From Branchiostoma floridae (taxonomy: Eukaryota; Chordata; Leptocardii; Amphioxiformes; Branchiostomatidae), in the NCBI RefSeq assembly GCF_000003815.2, contig NC_049982.1, forward strand, positions 11,993,183-12,057,182: a stretch of DNA of 64,000 bases. The letters run 5' to 3'. The notes under the pieces were generated by a model. The model was not told the DNA's origin, searched no databases, and was given only the letters and a program-made list of their open reading frames with translations. This document shows positions 3,374-56,900 of the stretch, in pieces. The first letter of the stretch is position 1, and every line of letters starts with the position of its first letter. Position numbers and translations under genes: made by a program.

Positions 3374-6300
3374 ATGGCTTTCCGTGACCGTGAACAGGAA
3401 CGGCAACGGCAAATTTCACTCGGAAGGCAACTTGTGGAGGCTTCAAGGAAGGGGGAAGGCTCAGTCATCAGGAATCTGCTGAAAGTTGGCGCGTCCGTGG
3501 ATGCAGAAGAATTCAACAGGTCGCATTTCATCGGTCAAAACATCGTATGAATGGTTTTAAAGGGGAGGGGGGCGGCAGACAGAAGCCCATGAGAAAGTCT
3601 TGCAGCGGGGGCGTGACTCCCTTTTAATCATCCAGCTGTGAATTTGATGAGAGTTGAGCTTTCTGTCAATGCATGTTTTTACTAAAACCGCTGTGTGAAG
3701 ACTCTACTTTCATATTTGGCGCATATGCAGCTCCAGGTCGACATTTCTAGTGGAAAATTCCACACTCGTGACACGTATGTCTGCATCTGATGTCTTCAAG
3801 TTCAACAGCACAGGCAAAAGTCACAAGCAAAAGATTATGTTCTATGTTATGTGACGTTGTAATGTGATGTGTGTACTTGACATTGATAAAGCTGTTGATT
3901 AAAAATACTAACCTAATCGCGATTCTTGCTGCTATAAATTTCCATTGATAGATTTTTAGGTTGCAAACAACTGATAAACCTTGATCTATCTCTACAACAT
4001 CCCCTAAAAAACGTCTTACATATTCAGTAGTTGGAGTCATTACCTTGAAACAAGGTGGTTTGAGCAAGGAGTTTGAGCTTTCGTGCTTTCAATCAAGGAG
4101 GTTATAGTCAATATGACTTGACTTGACTATAGTCAATTATATTTCACTCTTGTTCCAACATCAACAATACAACTGTATGTGGATGGCAGACTGGATGACA
4201 TGATGTTGTGTTTTTTCCTGTTGTACAGAACTCTGTTCTACGCATCTCAGAACTACCTGACACCCCTGCAAGAAGCCGCAAAGTTTGGACATGCCGACTG
4301 CGTCAGGGTACTCATACAACATGCAGGTAATGATACAGTTTTTAAGACTTTATATCCGTACACAAGATAAAGCGCTTACCAACAAGCTTTCGATCAGTCC
4401 TCTGATCCGTCTCAAGTTTTAATGACCCAAAACCTAGGTCGCACTTCCGGAACCTACATGCAGGTAGGTCAACTACATATATATCTGTCCTTATTTTTAA
4501 ATCACACCAAGAACCAAGACTCAACGATCTTTGTATTGAGCTTTATAGAAAGCTTTTTTTAAAATGTGGAAGATTGTTTACAATTGTGTATAAGCTTTTG
4601 TTAGTGTTGATTGATGATACAATCTGTACTCTCAGTTTTGAGATTAGAAAAAATAAAATACTAGAATGACAAGTAGAACTAGAGTGATTAGATCAGTCCG
4701 AGTGACTCCTTACTTGACTGAAGATGGTATGCAGGTACATGTAGTATACAAACAGAGTGGAGGATGTACCCCGTCAATGTGTGATGTCCTTTCAGCTGAT
4801 GTGAACACCTGCGACCGGTTTGACGTGACAGCTGTGCACCTGGCAGGGGAGGGTGGACATGTCCAGTGTCTGCACGCTCTGCTGGAGGCAGGAGCTGACC
4901 CTAACAAGGGAACCAAGTACTCCAAACCTGGGGCCTATACAGGTAAGACATGCATTACATTTGACTATAAACTGAGCGCATGTAGAACTGGTATGTGAAG
5001 GAAATAGTTTTCCTCTGATGAGATCATCTACCTAAACTTTTAAAGGTACACTTTTTAAGCTGGTTATTTCCAGTCATGAATGCATGGTTATAAACATATG
5101 CATAAGGGATGACCATCTACATATGAGGTAGTATGATGTATGTATAATTTTGGAAGTCCCTTTTGTTGTAAGTTTTGGAACACCTCAATTTTGGGAACAG
5201 TCATGCAGCATCAGGGTGATACATATAGAATACAACGCGGTGTATTCCGTATCACCCGAGGTACCAGCCCGACCACAGGAAGGATCGCCCGAAGGCCGGA
5301 GGGTGATCCCAACCGCGGGAGGGCTGAGACCTAGGGTGATGCGGAATACACTGTGTTGTATTTTATTGATGTCATACCCACCTGGAAAACCCATGTTTTG
5401 ATGCGAAATGTGCCGAAGTTGAACAAATTGGTACCCTCGACCAAAAAATGTGTAACAACAGCAATTAATGTTCCAACGTCCGAATCAGGTATTCGCCAAC
5501 CGTGTCGCACTCGGCCCACTCGAAATGGTTTGATTTACTCGAAGGAAGCCTGTGTGATACAAACTTCGAGCCTGTGTGATACAGAAGTTATCACACGGTC
5601 CGGAACACCCATATGGAACGTGTTCGCGTCACAGGTATGACATAATAGGACTTACATGTGTTAACAGCGTACCCACACCCCGGCGGCACCACGCCCCTGC
5701 ATCTGGCAGCCACAAACGACCACGTGGACTGTATCCGCGAGCTGATCATCAACGGCGCCGACTACAAATCCCAGGACGAGCTGGGCAGGACCAGTCTGTA
5801 CATCTCCAGCTACAGGCAGAGCGAGAAGGGAGTCCTCACACACCTGCAGAACGCCATGGGCAGGGACATACTGTCTCTACCTGTGTACCAGACAGGTAAG
5901 ATGGGACACCTGTGTACCAGACAGGTAAGATGGGACATACTGTCTCTACCTGTGTACCAGACAGGTAAGATGGGACATACTGTCTCTACCTGTGTACCAG
6001 ACAGGTAAGATGGGACTTACTGTCTCTACCTGTGTACCAGACAGGTAAGATGGGACATGCTGTCTCTACCTGTGTACCAGACAGGTAAGATGGGACATAC
6101 TGTCTCTACCTGTGTACCAGACAGGTAAGATGGGACTTACTGTCTCTACCTGTGTACCAGACAGGTAAGATGGGACTTACTGTCTCTACCTGTGTACCAG
6201 ACAGGTAAGATGGGACTTACTGTCTCTACCTGTGTACCAGACAGGTAAGATGGGACTTACTGTCTCTACCTGTGTACCAGACAGGTAAGATGGGACTTAC

Positions 6301-8182
6301 TGTCTCTATCTGTGTACCAGACAGGTAAGATAGGACACCTGTGTACCAGACAGGTAAGATGGGACATACTGTCTCTACCTGTGTACCAGACAGGTAAGAT
6401 GGAACATACTGTCTCTACCTGTGTACCAGACAGGTAAGATAGGACACCTGTGTACCAGACAGGTAAGATAGGACACCTGTGAACCAGACAGGTAAAATGG
6501 GAATACTTTGCATACTGGTAGAATGGTACTTTTTTCTGTAGACCTTGCTTCATGAATACAATCTTGAACCACAAGACATTGTTATGCATTGCTAAAGACT
6601 AAGGTTTACTTCATAGGGTATTGTTTTATTTTTTTACGTAAACTCTTATGACAACGTGCACAAAAATTTTGATGCAATCCATTGTGTGAATTTACCCAGT
6701 AGCAAGACTTGCTTGTATGGATGTAAGAAAAAAGTGTTTGTATTATTTTCCCTTTTTTCAAAAACCAAAATATTTCCAATCTAGAGGAGACACCGCTACA
6801 TGAGAGTGTGAGACATGGTATGTCGGACGCAGTGCGCGCTCTGCTGAGGCACGGTTCTGACGCCAACGCCATGAACTCCTCTGGTCACTCCCCGTTCCAC
6901 TGTGCTGTGTTCCACACCGACAAGTTCTCCATGGCCATGGTCAAGGACATGCTGACCCTGGGGTACAACACAGACGTCAACCTGCCCACAACCGCAGGTA
7001 CGCTCACTACACTCATCTCATCTATTCAGCTTTACACATTAAAACACATTAAAACAAATATGGTACAAATCTGGCAAAAGAAACAAAGATGCTCCTCTAC
7101 AAGACCAGCTCCTCAGATAATGGCATAACAATTTAAAGAAATATGAATAAAAAATAAAATCAAACAAATACATTTGATAATATCAATAGCCCCAGTAGAA
7201 AGTAACATGAATGAAGTGAAATCAAAGAACAAATGGAACAATTATGATATAAAATGGCTATCAATGAACACAGAATCAAGAATTCAGTCCCAAAGCAGCA
7301 TTGCCATTGACAAATTGAAGTCCGTGTACTTGTATTTGTTGTGTATAAATTGTAAGGTGCTTTTTTTTGTTGTGTTATATGGCCATACTGCATTGTATTG
7401 AATGCCATTTAGCATTCTATTATTACATGTAACATACAACATCCAATGTTTTTACAGGTGCCTACCCTTTGTTCTTTGCCTGTTTCACGGACGGCTTCCG
7501 CGGCCAGCGACGCCCTGAGCTGGGAGAGCTGCTGATCGCGTACGGAGCCAAGCCTGAACTGCTGCACAAAAAGAGCGGTCCCCTCATCACATCAGAACTC
7601 AAGAGTCGAGACACTGACATGACAATACTACAGGTACATGTTTGAGTGGCTGGGACACTGACCTTACAACAGGAGATGTACATGTGGATGGCATGATTGT
7701 TAGGTTAAGGTCAAGTGGATTCAACAAAAACTTGTATGCAGTTGATTTTGTTCATTGAAAATTATTCTAATGTTTATTGTAAATTGTTGCATGTGTGTCA
7801 GGAAATCATTGCTAGCTAGTGGCATAAATCACTTATAAGGTAGGTAATTGATTTGTGGAGGTTGTCTGTTAACTGTATGCATGGTTTGCAGTGGAATGGG
7901 CTAGATTAGCACAACACCTTCATGTTGTATCCCGTTCTCCCTCAGTCTGTAGCCGACACCCAGCCGATGATCTCACGGAAATACCTGGCACCAGACTTCT
8001 TTGCCCCGCCCATCCCGGCACAGAAAAGGGCGTGGCTGGAGGACATGACACGGTCGCCTCGTAACCTCCAGCACCTCGCTCGCTGCGTGATCCGCTCGGC
8101 GCTCGGACAGTTCGGCCTGCGAAGAGTCTCAGAACTCCCCATCCCTTCCACACTGAAGGACTATTTGTTACTTCTGACATAA
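3374..8182 (+). CDS. Ankyrin-repeat and SOCS-box protein (ASB family)
   Basis: Seven exons join in frame: 3374-3519, 4229-4326, 4796-4942, 5668-5895, 6785-6997, 7458-7633 and 7946-8182, giving 414 residues. Ankyrin repeats run from about residue 17 to 310; clear TPLH-type helices are at TPLQEAAKFGHADCV (60-74), TAVHLAGEGGHVQCL (93-107), TTPLHLAATNDHVDC (138-152) and ETPLHESVRHG (about 208-218). The last 42 residues (SPRNLQHLARCVIRSAL ... LPIPSTLKDYLL) match a SOCS box with its BC-box and cullin-box parts. ASB proteins are substrate receptors of Elongin B/C-Cullin5 ubiquitin ligases: ankyrin repeats bind the substrate and the SOCS box recruits the ligase. I cannot assign an ASB number. ATG 3374 has an adequate context (AATATGG) and no earlier in-frame candidate seems better. 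The donor after exon 1 (GTCGCA) is weak but phase-correct. The donor of exon 4 is the start of a tandem array. Confidence 0.9.
5225..5366. repeat. Foldback element in ASB intron 3
   Basis: The left end (ATAGAATACAACGCGGTG, continuing to TATTCCGTATCACCC) is inverted at the right end (GGGTGATGCGGAATACAC, continuing to TTTTAT) with few mismatches over about 33 bp. This is typical of a non-autonomous DNA transposon or a piece of one. Related TGTGATAC words continue to about 5640, so the full insertion may be longer. Confidence 0.6.
5896..6491 (+). repeat. Minisatellite of duplicated exon end plus 5' splice site
   Basis: The array has sixteen units, twelve of 40 bp and four of 29 bp. Each ends CTGTGTACCAGACAG (one copy has GAACCAG) and is followed by GTAAGAT. 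GT donors fall at 5896, 5925, 5965, 6005, then every 40 bp to 6325, and at 6354, 6394, 6434, 6463 and 6492 (the last GTAAAA). The unit copies the last ~31 bp of ASB exon 4 (5865-5895) together with its donor, so the exon edge itself was the seed of the amplification. The 29-bp units are internal deletions of the 40-bp unit. Confidence 0.95.
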
Positions 8183-10116: not shown

Positions 10117-12567
10117 CTATCCAAAACATTCCTCTTCCAGTATATCAGGGTGTTCTTCCCAGAACACATCCCCTATAATGTCTGTATGAAGAGGCACAGC
10201 TTTCTTTCGTAGTTTAGTGACTTCCCTTGGACGTTCTACGGGGTCCTCTTCAGTCCGGCACGTTTTCATCACTGTCTCCTCCACCTGAGGGGTGCAACGC
10301 AAAGGTATCATACCTGTGTTCCAGTGAGTAGAAAGTGCCACTGAAATTAACCAAACCAAGTACTTACAACCTTGATATACTGTATATGTTTCATCCATGC
10401 CAAAGGCCCCTACTTGCCTGCACCTTAAATTGAAATATTTTTAGAAAGACAAACCATAAACACAGTGAAATGCCTTCAACTCACCCTCTTCCACACAAGA
10501 ACTGTGCCTTTCTTGTATATCTCTGGTTCATTGTTATAATTGATCCCAAACTCTGAGAACAAAATCTCATTCTTGTCAGCAGAAAATGTGTGCTGAAAGA
10601 AAAAAATTCAACCCCGATCATGAACTGTGTACCTGAATGTACTAAATGAATTAAGCTAAAAGAGAAAGACAAATTTGTGTTCTTTTCCATGTTGTCCTTC
10701 AAAATGATTAGAAACATGTACCAAGACCTCCAAAACAGGAAAAATGCACAATTTTAATATATAGGTAATTTTACTGTCTTAATCAGTTTATATACCCGTA
10801 TTCTCTCCTCTGCCTGCTTGTTTGTCATTCCTCCTTGTTGTACTAGTGCCCAGAAACAGGTGTTGTACAAGTTGTTTATGTGGCCTGCAAGAAAAAACAA
10901 AAAGTCAAACCTGTTATCCAACTATTGTAACTTACATTTTTGTTGCAGATCTTGCATTATCCTGCAGAACATCTTACAACTCACATCCACACTATGCAGT
11001 AAAATATTTATTTATTCTTGAAAAAAAAGAAGGTTTATTTATTTATTTGTTAGTTCAGCTGATACATACAGCCAGGTTTACTAGTATAGTTGCATAGATT
11101 TTATGTCAAAACAAGATTGGTACTCACAGTCTGCTTGCCTCCAGCTGAGGTAGTCCCTGAGGTTCTTGTTGCTAGGATACAGGATGACACGCCCATCAAA
11201 GCCAGGTGGGTACTGCAGGGGCTGATCAGGGAAGTGTTGAGCCCAGTGGAACACGTATGAAGATGAGAACTGTGACACGATGTGGGTCATCAGCTTACTG
11301 CACAGGAACAGATACCATGTATGTAGTGATACTGACGATAGGTCATATAATGTCTGACCGTTTCCAAAATCATATCCAGTTGCTTGAGTAACTGCTAATT
11401 GGCATATCTTATCTATTGTTATTACCTGCATGTCTAACTTTCAACAAGTAACATTAATATGGAAAATCTAAACCAGACTAACCCTAACTGTACTACACGA
11501 GTAACAGCAAGAATTGTGTTTGCCTACAGGACTATAGAGATGAAACAACCAGAGGGGCGAGTAAGAACAGAAAGAAACAACATGCCCCCTACCCGGAATC
11601 GAACCGGGGTCGGCAGATCACAAATCACGAACGCTATCACCGTCACCACAAAAGCACTAGTGCCCTTGGGCAAGGACAATAGGCAGTACTTAATTAAACA
11701 CCACTGTTACACTATATGGTCTAGTGGTTAGGATTTGGCGCTCTCACCACCAAGGCCCGGGTTCGATTCCCGGTGTGGGAACCAGTGAAACAACCAGAGG
11801 GGCGAGTAAGAACAGAAAGAAACAACATCCCCACTCCCGGGATTCGAACCCGCGCCGAACCCGGGCAGCTGGATCACAAATCCAACGTGCTAACCACAAC
11901 ACCAAAAGCTCAAGAGCTGTTGGCGTGTTCAGTTGGCAGCGCTAGAACCACACTGTTACAGAGAGACAAGCTTTTGGCTGTCATGACTGAATGCACATGT
12001 GCTCACCTGGCCCTTCTGCTGTAAAGCATTGTGGATTTCTTCAGAACAAAGCTAAACTCGTCACTCTGTCCATACGAGATGACAATGTCTCTGAAATCAT
12101 TCATGACAGTCTCAGCAGCTCTGTTCATCAGTTGCAGAGCTCGCTCATCATTTGGCTTGGTGAAGCCATGATCTGTGGAAAATCTGTGGAAAACACAAAC
12201 CACTCTTGGGTTATCTGTAAGAACAAGGAGGTTAAGAAATACATTCTTTTTAATGGGCTAAGAACAAATGACTCCCTCGTGGTAAACAGCAGCCATTCAA
12301 GCAAGTGGTAGCAAAACTTTATTGTACTTCATTGTATTAGCTATCGAGAAGACATTAGGCTTTGTCCATTCGTTTCATTCAGTCAAGCCCCACTCCTGGT
12401 CTGTATATGGGTCCAGTTGAGATGGAAGAACTTGATCTTGTAATCACTTTTGCCACTACGTACCTGTGAAAATTCCGACCATCCAGTCGGATCACAATCC
12501 AGGTGTTGGGTAGACAAGGATCCTGTGTCTCAAACTGTCGGACGTACTCAAATTTGCTCTTTGCCAT
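10117..12567 (-). CDS. THG1L: tRNA-His guanylyltransferase
   Basis: Six exons join in frame: 12464-12567, 12007-12183, 11128-11297, 10796-10884, 10485-10592 and 10117-10284, giving 271 residues from [10 protein letters not shown]. The enzyme adds a G to the 5' end (position -1) of tRNA-His, the identity mark read by histidyl-tRNA synthetase. Metal-binding aspartates are present in [10 protein letters not shown] (D29) and YGQSDEFSF (D76, E77). [26 protein letters not shown] and the C-terminal PLHTDIIGD are also conserved. The length agrees with the vertebrate protein apart from an N-terminal leader. An acceptor-like TTTTAG lies just 5' of the chosen ATG, so an upstream exon adding a leader (mitochondrial form) is possible. 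The second intron carries three tRNA-derived insertions. The gene is divergent from RAB24 and convergent with the ASB gene. Confidence 0.96.
11524..11680 (-). mobile_element. tRNA-derived SINE, copy 1 (THG1L intron)
   Basis: On the minus strand there is an A-box-like region (TGGTGACGGTGATAGCG) and a B box GGTTCGATTCC, followed by a tail running TGTTGTTTCTTTCTGTTC and CTTACTCGCCCCTCTGG. The same tail follows copy 2. This is the arrangement of a Pol III-transcribed tRNA-derived SINE. The acceptor stem is not intact, so it is not a functional tRNA gene. Confidence 0.6.
11708..11783 (+). pseudogene. tRNA-Glu(CTC)-like sequence with a broken acceptor stem
   Basis: TGGTCTAGTGGTTAGGATTT, GGCGCTCTCACC and CCCGGGTTCGATTCCCGG closely follow eukaryotic tRNA-Glu with anticodon CTC, including intact D, anticodon and T arms. 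The 3' acceptor strand TGTGGGA would need TCCCACA opposite. The sequence has CACTATA instead, giving at least two mismatches and two wobbles. A tRNA pseudogene or a SINE head is more likely than a working gene. It sits between two antisense SINE copies. Confidence 0.65.
11784..11925 (-). mobile_element. tRNA-derived SINE, copy 2 (THG1L intron)
   Basis: On the minus strand: TGGTGTTGTGGTTAGCACG (A box region), an anticodon-like loop TTTGTGA, B box GGTTCGAATCC, then the same tail as copy 1 (TGTTGTTTCTTTCTGTTC). The plus-strand tail AAACAACCAGAGGGGCGAG precedes both copies. It is closely related to the tRNA-like element near 35.7 kb. Confidence 0.65.
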
Positions 12568-13639
12568 CACTGATGTCGAGAAACTAAAATATTTCAATAC
12601 TTGGACGTGATTACCTAGACTTTCACCTCTCTGTATTATACAGGGGTAGATGCTGTTTTTGTTGACCCTATGTGTTAAGTTGCAGATGAGCCGTAATGGT
12701 ACACATCTAGTGTTTGCTTTTGGTTGCAGGATCAGAGTTTTTGCAGGTATGGTCAGTGGTGTGTGCAAGGAAAAGGCTGTTGAATACTTTTTAAATCCTC
12801 AAGTTTTTCATGAAGACATCAAAGATTGGGAAGAAAGTCTGGGTTGAAATCCTTGGCAAAATTGTACTCTCGTTGCAACTTGACTTTGATCCTCACAAAT
12901 ATCCAATCGACCGGAGCGCCTGAGAAGCTAGCTAACTAGCTAGCTGATACCTTAGAAAAGTATGATAACAGATAAGTAACAGAGCCAAAGAGGGTGCGAA
13001 AAAAATTATTCAAGTCTGCTCCACCGCAAACGTGAAATTTACACGACAAAAATAGTCCCAAAATACTACGGTTTGTATGCTCCCTTTTTTGCCGCCTGAG
13101 TAACGTGGATCTCGTCTGCTCACGAAAAAGTACTAAACCTGAATCTGATTTGTGAGAAACCGCCTGAAAATATACCTGGGCGCAGCCATTTTGTCCAAAG
13201 AATGATGGGAATTGAAAAAGTAACCAATCATGGTTTCAATAACATGTCCGTCATGAGGATTTTCCAGACGTCATTTGTGATAGCGATTCCCATTGGTTTG
13301 TTGAGAAATTGACCTGGGATCAAAGGTGAATAGGTCATGTGTGAAATGTTTATGTTTGTCAGGAAGAGTCTTGTATGATTTGTTGGTTTTAAAACATTTT
13401 CCAGCTTATAAAGTTGGTATCGTGGGAAACCTGATGACTTTATTTCTTCGAGTATGCTAGCGAATCACCCGGCATACTGCCTAGGACCTGGAGTGTAAGT
13501 GATCGAGCAAAAATAGTTCGTCAAAAAATTGCCAAGAGTCTGTCTAGGGACAAAGTCAATGAAGTAGGGTGTGATCGCTTCTGGAATCCGCCTTCGATCC
13601 GCGGCGTGATCGTGACTGTTCCGCGGACTGGGAGTGAAC
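12568..13639. promoter_or_regulatory. Shared upstream region of THG1L and RAB24
   Basis: About 1.07 kb separates divergent start codons. A CCAAT box is at 13224-13228, and a YY1-like GCCATTTTG occurs near 13187. A run of CTAG/GCTAGC words near 12930-12950 looks simple-repetitive. Transcription starts are not visible from sequence. Confidence 0.35.
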
Positions 13640-21685: not shown

Positions 21686-24600
21686 TCATGCGATGCAGGA
21701 CACCAGGCCCATGGTGGTGATGCCTGCTATCATCATCGCCACCTGTTTGACGGACTCCCAGCCTGACGTTTCCTCCAGCAGGTCGGGCACCACCGTAACC
21801 AAGGCAACGTAGATGAACCCGCCCGAGGTGAAGGGCAGGATCCAGGCCGTGCTGTCTCCTGAAAAACATCATGGCAAGAGGAGATTGTTCATGGAAATAT
21901 AAAGTTGCCAGTTGCCAACTGCTTTTTGTTCATTTTACAATAAACGGAACTCACAAACATACGCTCATAAAGATGTTACCTTACCCCTCTCGAGTGGTTT
22001 ACTGAGAAGAAGAAGAATTTACAGCTCTTGGTGGCAACGTGCAGGTGTTGGCACACTGGCACATCAAATCTATCTGTGTTTTTGGCACACTTTTTGACAG
22101 AATAGCCAAAGAGGCTCGGTGGGCATGTGCCTTATTTACAAGAATTAAACAGTTCCTAGCCACCTACCCGCTCCTTCAGCTGACTCTGCCAACAGTGCCG
22201 TCGCTGTCCCAAACATGCCGCCAGACGCTGTGATAATCTGTGCCTTGGCTGCCCGCCATCTCGAGAAGCCAGCGCGCATCAGGATGGCGAAGTCACCGAT
22301 CTCATGTGGGATCTCATGGAGCAGAATGGCCAGCGTCGTCAGCACACCAACCTGGGGACCAGATAGTGGGCGTATTTAATCTGTCATTTAGATTTTGAGG
22401 TTTTGTCTTCCAAATCAAGCAAAGAAACCTTTCATAAGTAAGGAGCTACATACAATGTACTGACAGGGCTTACTCTACTGGTGCACAGGCCAGAAGTAAC
22501 ACCAGATGTGATACTTCCAAATCTGGAACAGACCCAACATATCTGAGTGGAGATACATTTACATTTTCCATGGAATGTTGGAATTTCTACCTGAGGCCTG
22601 CATATTCTAACAATTGTCCTCTGTGATAATTCACATTGAAGGCTGTCAATGTGTGATAATTCACACATTGAAATTGACAGCCGTCCCTAGCCACAGAATC
22701 TCTACAGAAAATAATGAAGGACTTGTACTGCAGCTGAAATAAAGAGGACCTGTAAAGAAGTACCCTACCTTTGTACTGACAAGAAAGCTCCCTCCCACAG
22801 CCAGCCCGTGGGTGAAGTTGTCTATACAGTTGGCCAGCAGGTTGAGGTAACCTGATATCTATGTGAGAAAAGAAGCAGTGGGAACTGTTAGCATATTGTA
22901 AGGTGTAATATCATCATTTTATAACTACATGATGGGTATGCAACTAAAATTCCTTTCAATTGCAACTTTCTTCTATATCACAATATTCTTGATTCACTTG
23001 GATTCCCATTTTCTTTTCCATTAGAATAGTTATGTTCAGCTTATAGTTAAGTTTGATGGCAATTGTCTCACATAGTAACAATGCAAATAATTGAACTAGG
23101 TATCATAGAAAAGCCTAGAATCTTCAGAATCTTATTCGTTCACAACGTTTTCCTCATGAGGAAATGTGGTCTTTAACATGTTCAAGACTTAGACAAAACA
23201 ATTGGCAGTGACTCCTAAACACCATGGGCAACAAAATAAACACTCAAAATACCACCACTTAGAGATAGACATGGAAGTTAAGAAAGGAACACCTTCATTT
23301 TGTACTTCCAATTGTACACTCGAGCCCTAAAATACAATATATTTGCGGCTGAAAAGAAAACGAGTACACAGAGCGTACTGACCTGGATGTGCTGACTGGG
23401 TTGATTGTCACTGTCTCTATCATTTCTGCTATTCTCACTCTGATTCACTGGTCCATTCTCCTGCTTTAGTTTCCCATTGGCTGCTGGACTAGATGATGTT
23501 ATGGCACCATTTTTAAAAACCTCTCCATTTTTATCCCCACTGCTGTCTTTGTCGTGGAGACTCCGCCTCCTGATTTGACTGACATCTTGGTAAGGTGGCA
23601 AACTGCCATTTTCCTGTTTGAGAGGGAACAGGGTTTGTCTTTAGAGTGACTGATGTGTCTATGTACACGAACTTCAACATGCACTCTTGTTTGTAGATCT
23701 TAGTTCCATTAGGCTGGCTGTTTTGAACCTAGATTTTGCAAATTTACTCCATTTCTTTTCCTGAAACCTGACAATGACCAATACATAGGTTAGGTTTTCT
23801 CCAACTTAAAAATGATCAACACCATCTAGCCAACATGCCATCCTGGCCATAAAATTATCAGCTTGTGTAAACAAGAACCACCTGGGGATCTATATTAGGA
23901 GCCTGGGGTGATGGGAAAACAGATAACATGCAATAACTAACTTATTAGACATTCATGCCTGTAGGTACTAAAGGCTAAGCATATATCAAATAAAGGTGAC
24001 AGAAAACCTTCAACTTAGACTTCAGGGAATGAAACCATCATCTTTGTTTTGATCTGCTGCAGTGCACTGGTGCCCATAACTATCAACTACAATTTCACAA
24101 CAGAACCAATGTTGAAGGTTGGTTTCTATTCTCAGCTTGACACATCCTGACTTTGACTCTTGTCATTGATACTACTAAAATGTATATGAAACAAATTGGA
24201 AATTGTGCTGTAGTTGTGTGTCGGTTCTTTTTATGAACATAAGGTCACCTGTCAAATTTTTGTACAAGCACGTAAAGTAAAAAGTATATCTGCAGTAGTC
24301 GTAGATGTAGTCATGAAGCTGTACATGTAGATGTCACAATGTATGTAATTATTGTTACTTTTCAATAAAGCTTTTTAAAAAGATTTAAAATATATACATA
24401 TAAAAAAATAAGGTCACCTGGTGGGATGTGTGCCTGTGGTCTTCAGACGTCTCCTCTGAGTCAGCCTTGTCTTCCCCTGCTGTGTTTGTGAAGGTTTTCT
24501 CCATGATGAGGAAGGACATGATGCCAGCGATCGTCCACAACCCCACCCAGTTGTGTCCATGTTTCTCCTCCCCTGGGGACAGAATTAGCAAATGTTGTAC

Positions 24601-55679: not shown

Positions 55680-56510
55680 GCATTTATTATGCAAATTAGA
55701 TCCCAATTTACAATTAATTGATATCAAATTGTATCAAGCATTACTTAAGCTATCAGCATACCAAAAATCATGATGATCCTTTGATCCATTCTTGACTTAT
55801 ATTCTTTCAAAGTCTTTAAATACACCTCTTACTCTCTTCCCTCTTTCTCAGTTACATATGTGACAACTTTGATGAAAGTACTATAATGGAATGCAGTGGA
55901 TTTATGAACTTTTCCTAATCAATTATGCAAATTAGCTGTTAACTTGCATAATAAGTATCACATTATATAAGTCTTCATTTAGGCTATCTACATGCCGAAA
56001 ATCATGACGATCCGTCAACACGTTAATATTTTCTCATTAATTATGCAAATGAGATCATCATTTGCATGATAAATATGTATTGACATTTCTGTCTTTCTCA
56101 GCTACATATGTGACAAGTTTTAAAGCCCTATAATGGAATGTAGTGAATTTATAAAATATTCTCATTAATTATGCAAATTAGCTGTTGATTTGCATAATTG
56201 TTATCTCATTATGTAGGTCTTCACTTACGCTACCTACATACAAAAAAACATGATGATCCGTCAACATGTTCATATTTTCTCATTAATTATGCAAATGAGG
56301 TCATCATTTGCATAATTGATATCTGTCGACATTTCTCTCCTTCCCAGCTACATATGTGACAAGTTTGAAAGTCCTATCATGGAATGTAGTGGATTTATAA
56401 TTTTTCCTCATTAATTATGCAAATTAGCTGCTGATTTGCATAATTAATATACCATTATGTAAGTCATCACTCATTCTATCTACATACCAAAAATCATGAC
56501 GATCCGTCAA
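55680..56510 (+). repeat. Tandem array of about 246-bp units rich in POU octamers
   Basis: About 3.5 units carry recurring anchors CATGACGATCCGTCAACACG (near 56008, 56253, 56500; a diverged one near 55773) and CAGCTACATATGTGACAAG. Each unit holds two dyads of ATGCAAAT and ATTTGCAT. Perfect forward octamers start at 55689, 55925, 56043, 56171, 56289 and 56417; reverse ones at 56060, 56188, 56306 and 56434. The offset within a dyad is always 17 bp. The array probably belongs to a larger mobile element continuing to about 56900. Confidence 0.9.
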
Positions 56511-56900
56511 CACGTTGTAGAGTTATTCTCATCCAAAGTTTGAAAGGAAACCGGCGCCTGCAGTTCCAAAAAAGCCGCTAGGGGGCCCAAACTCACAGCA
56601 CTTACTCTCTGCCTCGAGGGCTATCTACCACTCAAAAATCATGATCACAGCATGTCCAGAACACGAGATATAAAAAATTGAGGTTCTGATGCAGTACCTT
56701 AGCAAGCCGCTAGGGGGCCCATTATCGAACTTGACCTTCGTTTTCCCGACCCCTACCCACCTACCAAATATTATCGGGATCCATCCAAGACTTCTTGAGT
56801 TATGCTGTTAACAGACAGACACACAGACACACACACAGACTCACAATCCCAAAACATAACCTTAGCCATTCTGGCAAAGGTAATAATAATAAGAACGTTA
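56511..56900 (+). repeat. Right flank of the tandem-repeat element
   Basis: CCGCTAGGGGGCCCA appears twice (near 56574 and 56706), AAAATCATGATC recurs, and the block ends in an ACAGACAGACACACAGACAC tract and AAAACATAACCTTAGCC. Related tails with CAGACAGAC runs are, to my knowledge, common at the ends of interspersed repeats in marine invertebrates; this is not checked. Confidence 0.5.

Follow-up and report, generated by a model that had tools for sequence, protein, structure and literature searches.

How a gene tolerates an exon end and its splice donor repeated many times over is the question raised by an ASB-type gene of Branchiostoma floridae. The gene lies on the forward strand of the window analysed here, a stretch of 64,000 nucleotides (contig NC_049982.1, positions 11,993,183 to 12,057,182; all positions below are those of the window unless a contig is named). 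A hand-built prediction places it at 3374..8182, with seven exons at 3374-3519, 4229-4326, 4796-4942, 5668-5895, 6785-6997, 7458-7633, and 7946-8182. This model comprises 1245 nt and 414 residues, with all six introns bounded by GT and AG, matching phases, and no internal stops, and Pfam searches with the product of the full model identify ankyrin repeats (Ank, 5.8e-34) and a C-terminal SOCS box (SOCS_box, 5.5e-14). Exon 4 (5668..5895), supported by both the gene model and Pfam, ends in CAGACAG before the donor GTAAGAT, and in the model its end at 5895 forms an in-phase junction with exon 5 (6785..6997). Intron 4 (5896-6784, 889 nt) ends in an acceptor of its own at 6784; all but about 290 nt of the intron is taken up by a tandem array that starts in the end of exon 4. 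The array is best explained as a mirage, the name already given in lancelets to tandem repeats across exon/intron boundaries, and as a newly found example of that feature; we put the probability of this explanation as a whole at roughly 0.85.

The array (5863..6498, forward strand) is built from 17 units in tandem, of which 13 measure 40 bp and 4 measure 29 bp; Tandem Repeats Finder agrees on it (score 937). The 40-bp unit is made up of the last 33 bp of exon 4 (5863-5895) plus GTAAGAT, reading GGGACATACTGTCTCTACCTGTGTACCAGACAG and then GTAAGAT, and the 29-bp units (units 2, 13, 16, and 17) are without 11 internal bp, their exonic part being 22 bp. The original prediction, made from the letters alone, had described the same 40- and 29-bp repeats of the exon end and its donor; this description stands, except that the exonic part is 33 rather than 31 bp and the array runs from 5863 to 6498. 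Its count of 17 candidate donors was borne out, with CAGGTAA sites in 17 of 17 units at exon-end coordinates 5895, 5924, 5964, every 40 bp from there to 6324, and then 6353, 6393, 6433, 6462, and 6491. The donor word is GTAAGAT in 16 units and a weakened GTAAAAT in the last, and 16 of the 22 copies of GTAAGAT on the forward strand of the window lie inside the array. Scored with a hand-written donor matrix, the 16 donors, which are identical over nine bases, rank joint third among the 4240 GT sites of the window, and the last donor ranks 122nd. The units vary at seven positions as well as in length; units 8 to 11 are identical, the last unit (6470..6498, forward strand; 29 bp, with three substitutions) is the most diverged, and the first is of a type that is among the two most frequent. 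When the assembly (431 contigs, 513.4 Mb) was searched for exact matches to the 24-base core of the unit, 15 copies were returned, all in this array, diverged copies being invisible to such a search. No second tandem array tied to an exon end was seen when the window was compared with itself, ASB being the only gene modelled there.

Mirages are known in lancelets from two globin genes, Adh3, and other loci, with unit lengths of 10-72 bp in Adh3 and 150-160 bp in the globins, and many of the repeats carry AG and GT signals that are potential cryptic splice sites (Ebner et al. 2010, PMC3087553). PGBD5 was later added as a mirage locus, with troponin C cited (Pavelitz et al. 2013, PMC3902484). 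The ASB array agrees with these descriptions in that its repeats span the boundary (33 bp of exon and 7 bp of intron), its units of 40 and 29 bp fall within 10-160 bp, AG is followed directly by GT in 17 of 17 units, and the genome is that of a lancelet. This genome contains a lancelet-type green fluorescent protein (GFP) gene family, with 68 exon matches to mNeonGreen at up to 88% identity. One GFP product, joined from five exons, equals PDB 6m9x, which we take to come from Branchiostoma floridae, at every aligned residue except in the chromophore; a second product closely resembles 4dkm (amphioxus GFPc1a). The likeness to Adh3, troponin C, BflGb6/BflGb9, and PGBD5 lies in the boundary-spanning units, the AG/GT in many units, and the shared genus. 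The ASB array differs in that it repeats the 5' intron boundary, 17 times and in units of 40 and 29 bp, whereas BflGb6 repeats a 3' boundary in 150-160-bp units and in BflGb9 the 3' boundary of exon 2 is duplicated; the copy number of the ASB array also exceeds those given for the globin mirages (PMC3087553). Because mirages have already been named in lancelets, the ASB array adds a member rather than a new kind. It had been presented as a natural test of how the spliceosome chooses among donors, and it does offer a substrate with many donors, though it is not alone in this, as such arrays are a named feature of lancelets and many more are present in the genome.

The array would have been founded by a tandem duplication across the exon 4/intron 4 boundary, in which the exon and the intron sequence that follows GTAAGAT were probably joined at a GGGA common to both. 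This word is found in the intron after the array (6499..6502, forward strand) and matches the GGGA at 5863-5866 in the exon, a putative microhomology of the founding event, and duplication between the two copies would yield the 40-bp unit. The array would then have grown by slippage or unequal exchange. All units except the first lie within the intron. Each of the two common 40-bp types (fold z -2.1 and -2.2) can form hairpins of GGGACA with UGUCUC (five pairs in the TTAC type) and of UACCUGU with ACAGGUA, and the 29-bp type (z -1.3) keeps only the latter; these hairpins may help slippage. The diverged last unit and the identical units 8 to 11 would fit the pattern of minisatellites with internal turnover. 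Of the escape from homogenisation expected of edge units in a mirage, the last unit gives a sign and the first, being of a common type, does not. It is very unlikely that the array is an expansion artefact of assembly. Tandem arrays are hard to assemble, and one globin mirage seems aberrantly assembled in the draft genome according to Ebner et al. (PMC3087553), but the ASB units differ at their seven variable positions and in length in an order not easily made by simple read duplication. The mirage of BflGb6 is given there as 6 and 3 units in two haplotypes (PMC3087553), and by analogy the length of the ASB array is likely to be polymorphic. Exact-word and protein searches of the assembly did not find a paralogue or a second haplotype of the ASB gene without the array; 150 of 249 candidates from the protein search were scored, and the best outside the ASB gene was an ankyrin-like sequence of at most 36% identity.

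When all 17 donors were joined to exon 5 and translated, with exon 5 taken to 6996, one base less than in the final model (6997), open frames were obtained only at offset 0 and offset +69. The former corresponds to the first donor (5896..5902, forward strand), which gives the normal frame, and the latter to the third (5965..5971, forward strand), which adds 23 residues and had been singled out in the original prediction as the sole in-frame extension. At offsets of 29 and 109 exon 5 is read in a shifted frame that contains a stop, whereas retentions with offsets of at least 149 (13 of the 16 extra donors) meet the in-frame stop at 6006..6008 (forward strand) that had likewise been foreseen. 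That the +69 donor serves a regulated isoform, giving a functional protein with the 23 extra residues, is the least probable of all the alternatives weighed here: it is the only open extension among the 16, but one open frame in 16 is unremarkable, and the insert partly repeats the end of exon 4 itself. On translation, productive mRNA would come from the first donor, at 5895, and 15 of the other 16 would give a frameshift or a stop. By analogy, sole use of the first donor would agree with the published lack of aberrant messages at other mirages, at which the Adh3 data and globin reverse transcription PCR suggest regular splicing (PMC3087553).

Several observations weigh against this account of splicing. 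No sequence feature explains why the first donor should win, and it was the most accessible donor in none of seven folded arrays, ranking 3, 4, 4, 44, 5, 5, and 7 in them. Furthermore, when donors compete, the intron-proximal one is often favoured. SRSF1 has been described as promoting the proximal and hnRNP A1 the distal 5' splice site. Structural masking of the later donors fits the ASB array but was rejected as a general answer, because only four of the seven arrays have a first donor whose accessibility exceeds the median of the others. For the ASB array, the accessibility of the first donor was 1.4e-2 compared with a median of 2.0e-3 for the rest (rank 3 of 16, in one folding window), and the fold energy of the array had a z score of -4.9 (60 shuffles). 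Compared with 102 other GTRAG sites in the window, the median ASB donor is not unusual in accessibility over the nine-base site (27% of those sites fall below it) but is unusual over the four central bases (3% fall below it). Folding of 211 nt around the first donors gave no advantage over shuffled sequence (z -0.6).

A further answer starts from the AG directly before each GT, a feature missed by the original prediction. As every unit has this arrangement, a retained unit is a potential intron beginning with GT and ending with AG. Whichever units were retained, a further splice from 5896 to the last retained AG would restore the exact normal message; the array would then be a chain of cassettes resembling ratchet points, and the tolerance of mirages would follow. 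We regard this as doubtful. ACAG stands directly before GT in every unit, and the distances from 5896 to the unit AGs range from 29 to 596 nt, but an intron of only 29 or 69 nt would be a short one. The two AGs of the 40-bp unit score 6.1 and 7.2, compared with 1.4 for the true acceptor of intron 4, on a crude matrix by which they rank only 131st and 235th among the 3773 AGs of the window. The second of these AGs, four bases upstream (ACCAG), is the higher-scoring one in 40-bp units and would shift the message by +4, and the four 29-bp units score lower.

Two known systems offer partial precedents for such a second splicing. At ratchet points, known from recursive splicing in Drosophila, an acceptor and a donor are juxtaposed, and a short exon with another donor comes next. 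The ASB units likewise have an acceptor-like AG (of a strength taken from the same crude matrix) beside a strong donor, and the next donor follows after about 40 nt, but here the copies are many and the intron is short (889 nt), in place of a point inside a long intron. Tandem duplication of AGGT has been described as able to make a working intron (the Rogers model, ATP2A1, and arrays of 24 bp in fission yeast), and AG/GT bounds each retained unit in the ASB array in the same way; the difference is that an existing ASB intron has been lengthened, not a new one created inside a former exon. Among the three answers to the splicing problem that were weighed, a second splicing to a retained AG makes the sharpest prediction. 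Because a unit AG could serve that step, junction counts to 6785 alone could miss it. Overall, the interpretation given in the original prediction is partly supported: the anatomy, the donor count, and the frame arithmetic were right, and the published regular splicing at similar arrays and an excess of arrays that does not track donor strength (see below) had escaped it.

What is new here is the scale, as many more mirage-like arrays were found in this genome. A full-text literature search, with most subscription papers beyond its reach, found no published genome-wide survey of mirages. The assembly was searched on both strands for three copies of an 8-base word spaced 15-45 bases apart, with the reversed word as a control. 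The resulting counts, which overlap within arrays, are inflated by long arrays, and are lower bounds for repeats rather than numbers of arrays, were 1553 for CAGGTAAG (9 for its reverse), 2179 for CAGGTGAG (10), 881 for CAGGTAAC (40), 382 for CAGGTCAG (138, a 2.8-fold excess), 175 for AAGGTAAG (64), 124 for AAGGTGAG (33), and 23 for CAGCTAAG (1). Nor are the triple counts normalised by single-word counts, and these properties also tell against our explanation; in the rest of the window, with the array set aside, each of 14 words has 0-7 occurrences, which is too few for normalisation. Donors of the AAG type (AAGGTRAG) gave 299 triple matches compared with 3732 for those of the CAG type (CAGGTRAG), a roughly twelve-fold deficit.

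Exons supported by homology adjoin 7 of the 15 non-dispersed arrays inspected, in a test that covered arrays of CAGGTAAG (5 of 9) and CAGGTAAC (2 of 6) and left out those of CAGGTGAG, AAGGTRAG, and CAGGTCAG. The CAGGTAAG matches listed, which extend to C1:32.4 Mb, were grouped by eye into 14 places, all of which were retrieved and inspected. One of these (L039) lies in a dynein heavy chain gene, in which a manual join of the exons on either side gives a match (8.3e-27) that runs through the junction, and at another (L043) a TPR repeat is joined across an array with 56 copies of CAGGTAAG (8.7e-14 over the junction). Upstream of the array were found a dynein AAA_8 domain (L040), TMEM237 (L048, aligned up to position 153 of the 247 in the profile), and, as weaker support for an exon end, Ephrin_rec_like (L052, 1.9e-6). 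A SPATA7-type match at L045 fell just below the cut-off (25.6 against 27 bits), open frames at L042 and L044 had no Pfam matches, and L041 gave no clear picture. For CAGGTAAC, the matches listed fall into 11 to 14 places on C1, depending on grouping, and six were retrieved. Two of them are exon ends by Pfam (L062, DHC_N2, 1.1e-33; L064, BAAT_C, 1.5e-13), L066 looks coding-like but has no Pfam match, and a coding exon was not seen on inspection at L063, L065, and L067.

Other features of these arrays were noted by eye. Three CAGGTAAG places on C1 (L046, L047, and L049, at 9.48, 20.22, and 29.24 Mb) seem to belong to a dispersed element: their left flanks are similar, and inside they carry tandem units of 51 bp in which CAGGTAAG and CAGGTGAG abound. 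L050 and L051, with flanks that look alike, seem to form a second dispersed family. At C1:213-245 kb, a stretch of some 31 kb holds eight arrays, found with four words. Dynein heavy chain exons adjoin three of these arrays (L039, L040, and L062), and a single gene riddled with mirages may be present there. Long arrays of 50-bp units at C7:25808383-25811065 and C4:23471916-23472373 are coding-like up to AAG/GTAAG and are possibly further mirages with AAG donors.

Donors would appear to form arrays unusually often in this genome, perhaps as the donor consensus CAG/GT coincides with CAGGT, a word that its minisatellites may favour. Donor strength as the sole driver was rejected: matches to AAG donors are few and those to the poor donor CAGGTAAC abundant, as are those to CAGGTCAG, which argues that strength is not the whole story. 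In other animals, AAG donors are used about as often as CAG donors. The possibility that lancelet minisatellites favour a CAGGT core through DNA instability, and that donors are caught because their consensus contains it, is held tentatively, at somewhat less than even odds. Poor donors (CAGGTAAC, 881; CAGGTCAG, 382) gave more matches than the good donors AAGGTAAG (175) and AAGGTGAG (124), CAGCTAAG gave only 23, and three of the six retrieved CAGGTAAC arrays show no coding exon. Against this, CAGGTCAG exceeds its control no more than AAGGTAAG or AAGGTGAG does, and the consensus donors CAGGTRAG, at 4 to 6 times the level of CAGGTCAG, are the most enriched.

Motif content was assessed in the units of 37 arrays (12 of CAGGTAAG, the ASB unit included, 14 of CAGGTGAG, and 11 of CAGGTAAC). 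A second CAGGT was present in 13 of the 37 units (shuffle mean 2.9) and the complement ACCTG in 9 (shuffle mean 2.6), neither number being reached in any of 4000 shuffles, and these extra copies make CAGGT look like a favoured core of the minisatellites of this genome. The ACCTG excess comes mainly from CAGGTGAG units (5 of 14), however, with 3 of 12 for CAGGTAAG (reached in 390 of 4000 shuffles) and 1 of 11 for CAGGTAAC (1400 of 4000). From general donor frequencies, a few per cent of CAGGTAAC-type words would be estimated to be true donors. Two of the six CAGGTAAC arrays at exon ends by Pfam, with a third that is coding-like, are more than this, which speaks against a coincidence of motifs.

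Such a surplus of exon ends bears on a second origin, in which splicing or transcription, e.g. through R-loops in germ-line transcription, makes active exon/intron boundaries liable to duplicate in tandem. This is less likely than a coincidence of motifs, and on balance unlikely. It would account for the homology-supported exon ends at the CAGGTAAG and CAGGTAAC arrays given above and for the cluster of eight arrays at C1:213-245 kb with three flanks encoding dynein heavy chain, and several of the genes named are ciliary (the dyneins, TMEM237, and the sub-threshold SPATA7), in a small sample with three from one region. The shortage of AAG relative to CAG arrays is not predicted by it if both donors are used about equally. 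More broadly, B. floridae donors could be genome-wide hot spots of minisatellite birth, CAG/GT being the minisatellite core, with arrays persisting since units bounded by GT and AG let a second splicing restore the message; this combined reading is unlikely.

Elsewhere in the window, a 246-bp unit is repeated 2.7 times at 55837-56516 (84% matches). A tRNA-Glu-like sequence at 11710-11784 (Rfam tRNA, 40.1 bits, anticodon CTC) is flanked by the two copies of a direct repeat of 65 bp (at 11541-11605 and at 11786-11850), the whole perhaps being a tRNA-derived short repeat. Open frames on the reverse strand at 12379-12798 and 22145-22375 match a Thg1-type tRNA-His guanylyltransferase and a ZIP zinc transporter, respectively.

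The ASB array presents 17 near-identical donors in a natural context, in a genome with many such loci of differing copy number. Such loci would allow tests of how donors are chosen, how far exon definition reaches, and how introns grow, with no need for engineered constructs. Should the surplus of CAGGT arrays survive annotation and normalisation, a splice-site word would be linked to DNA instability, and a concrete route for the growth or origin of introns would be in hand.

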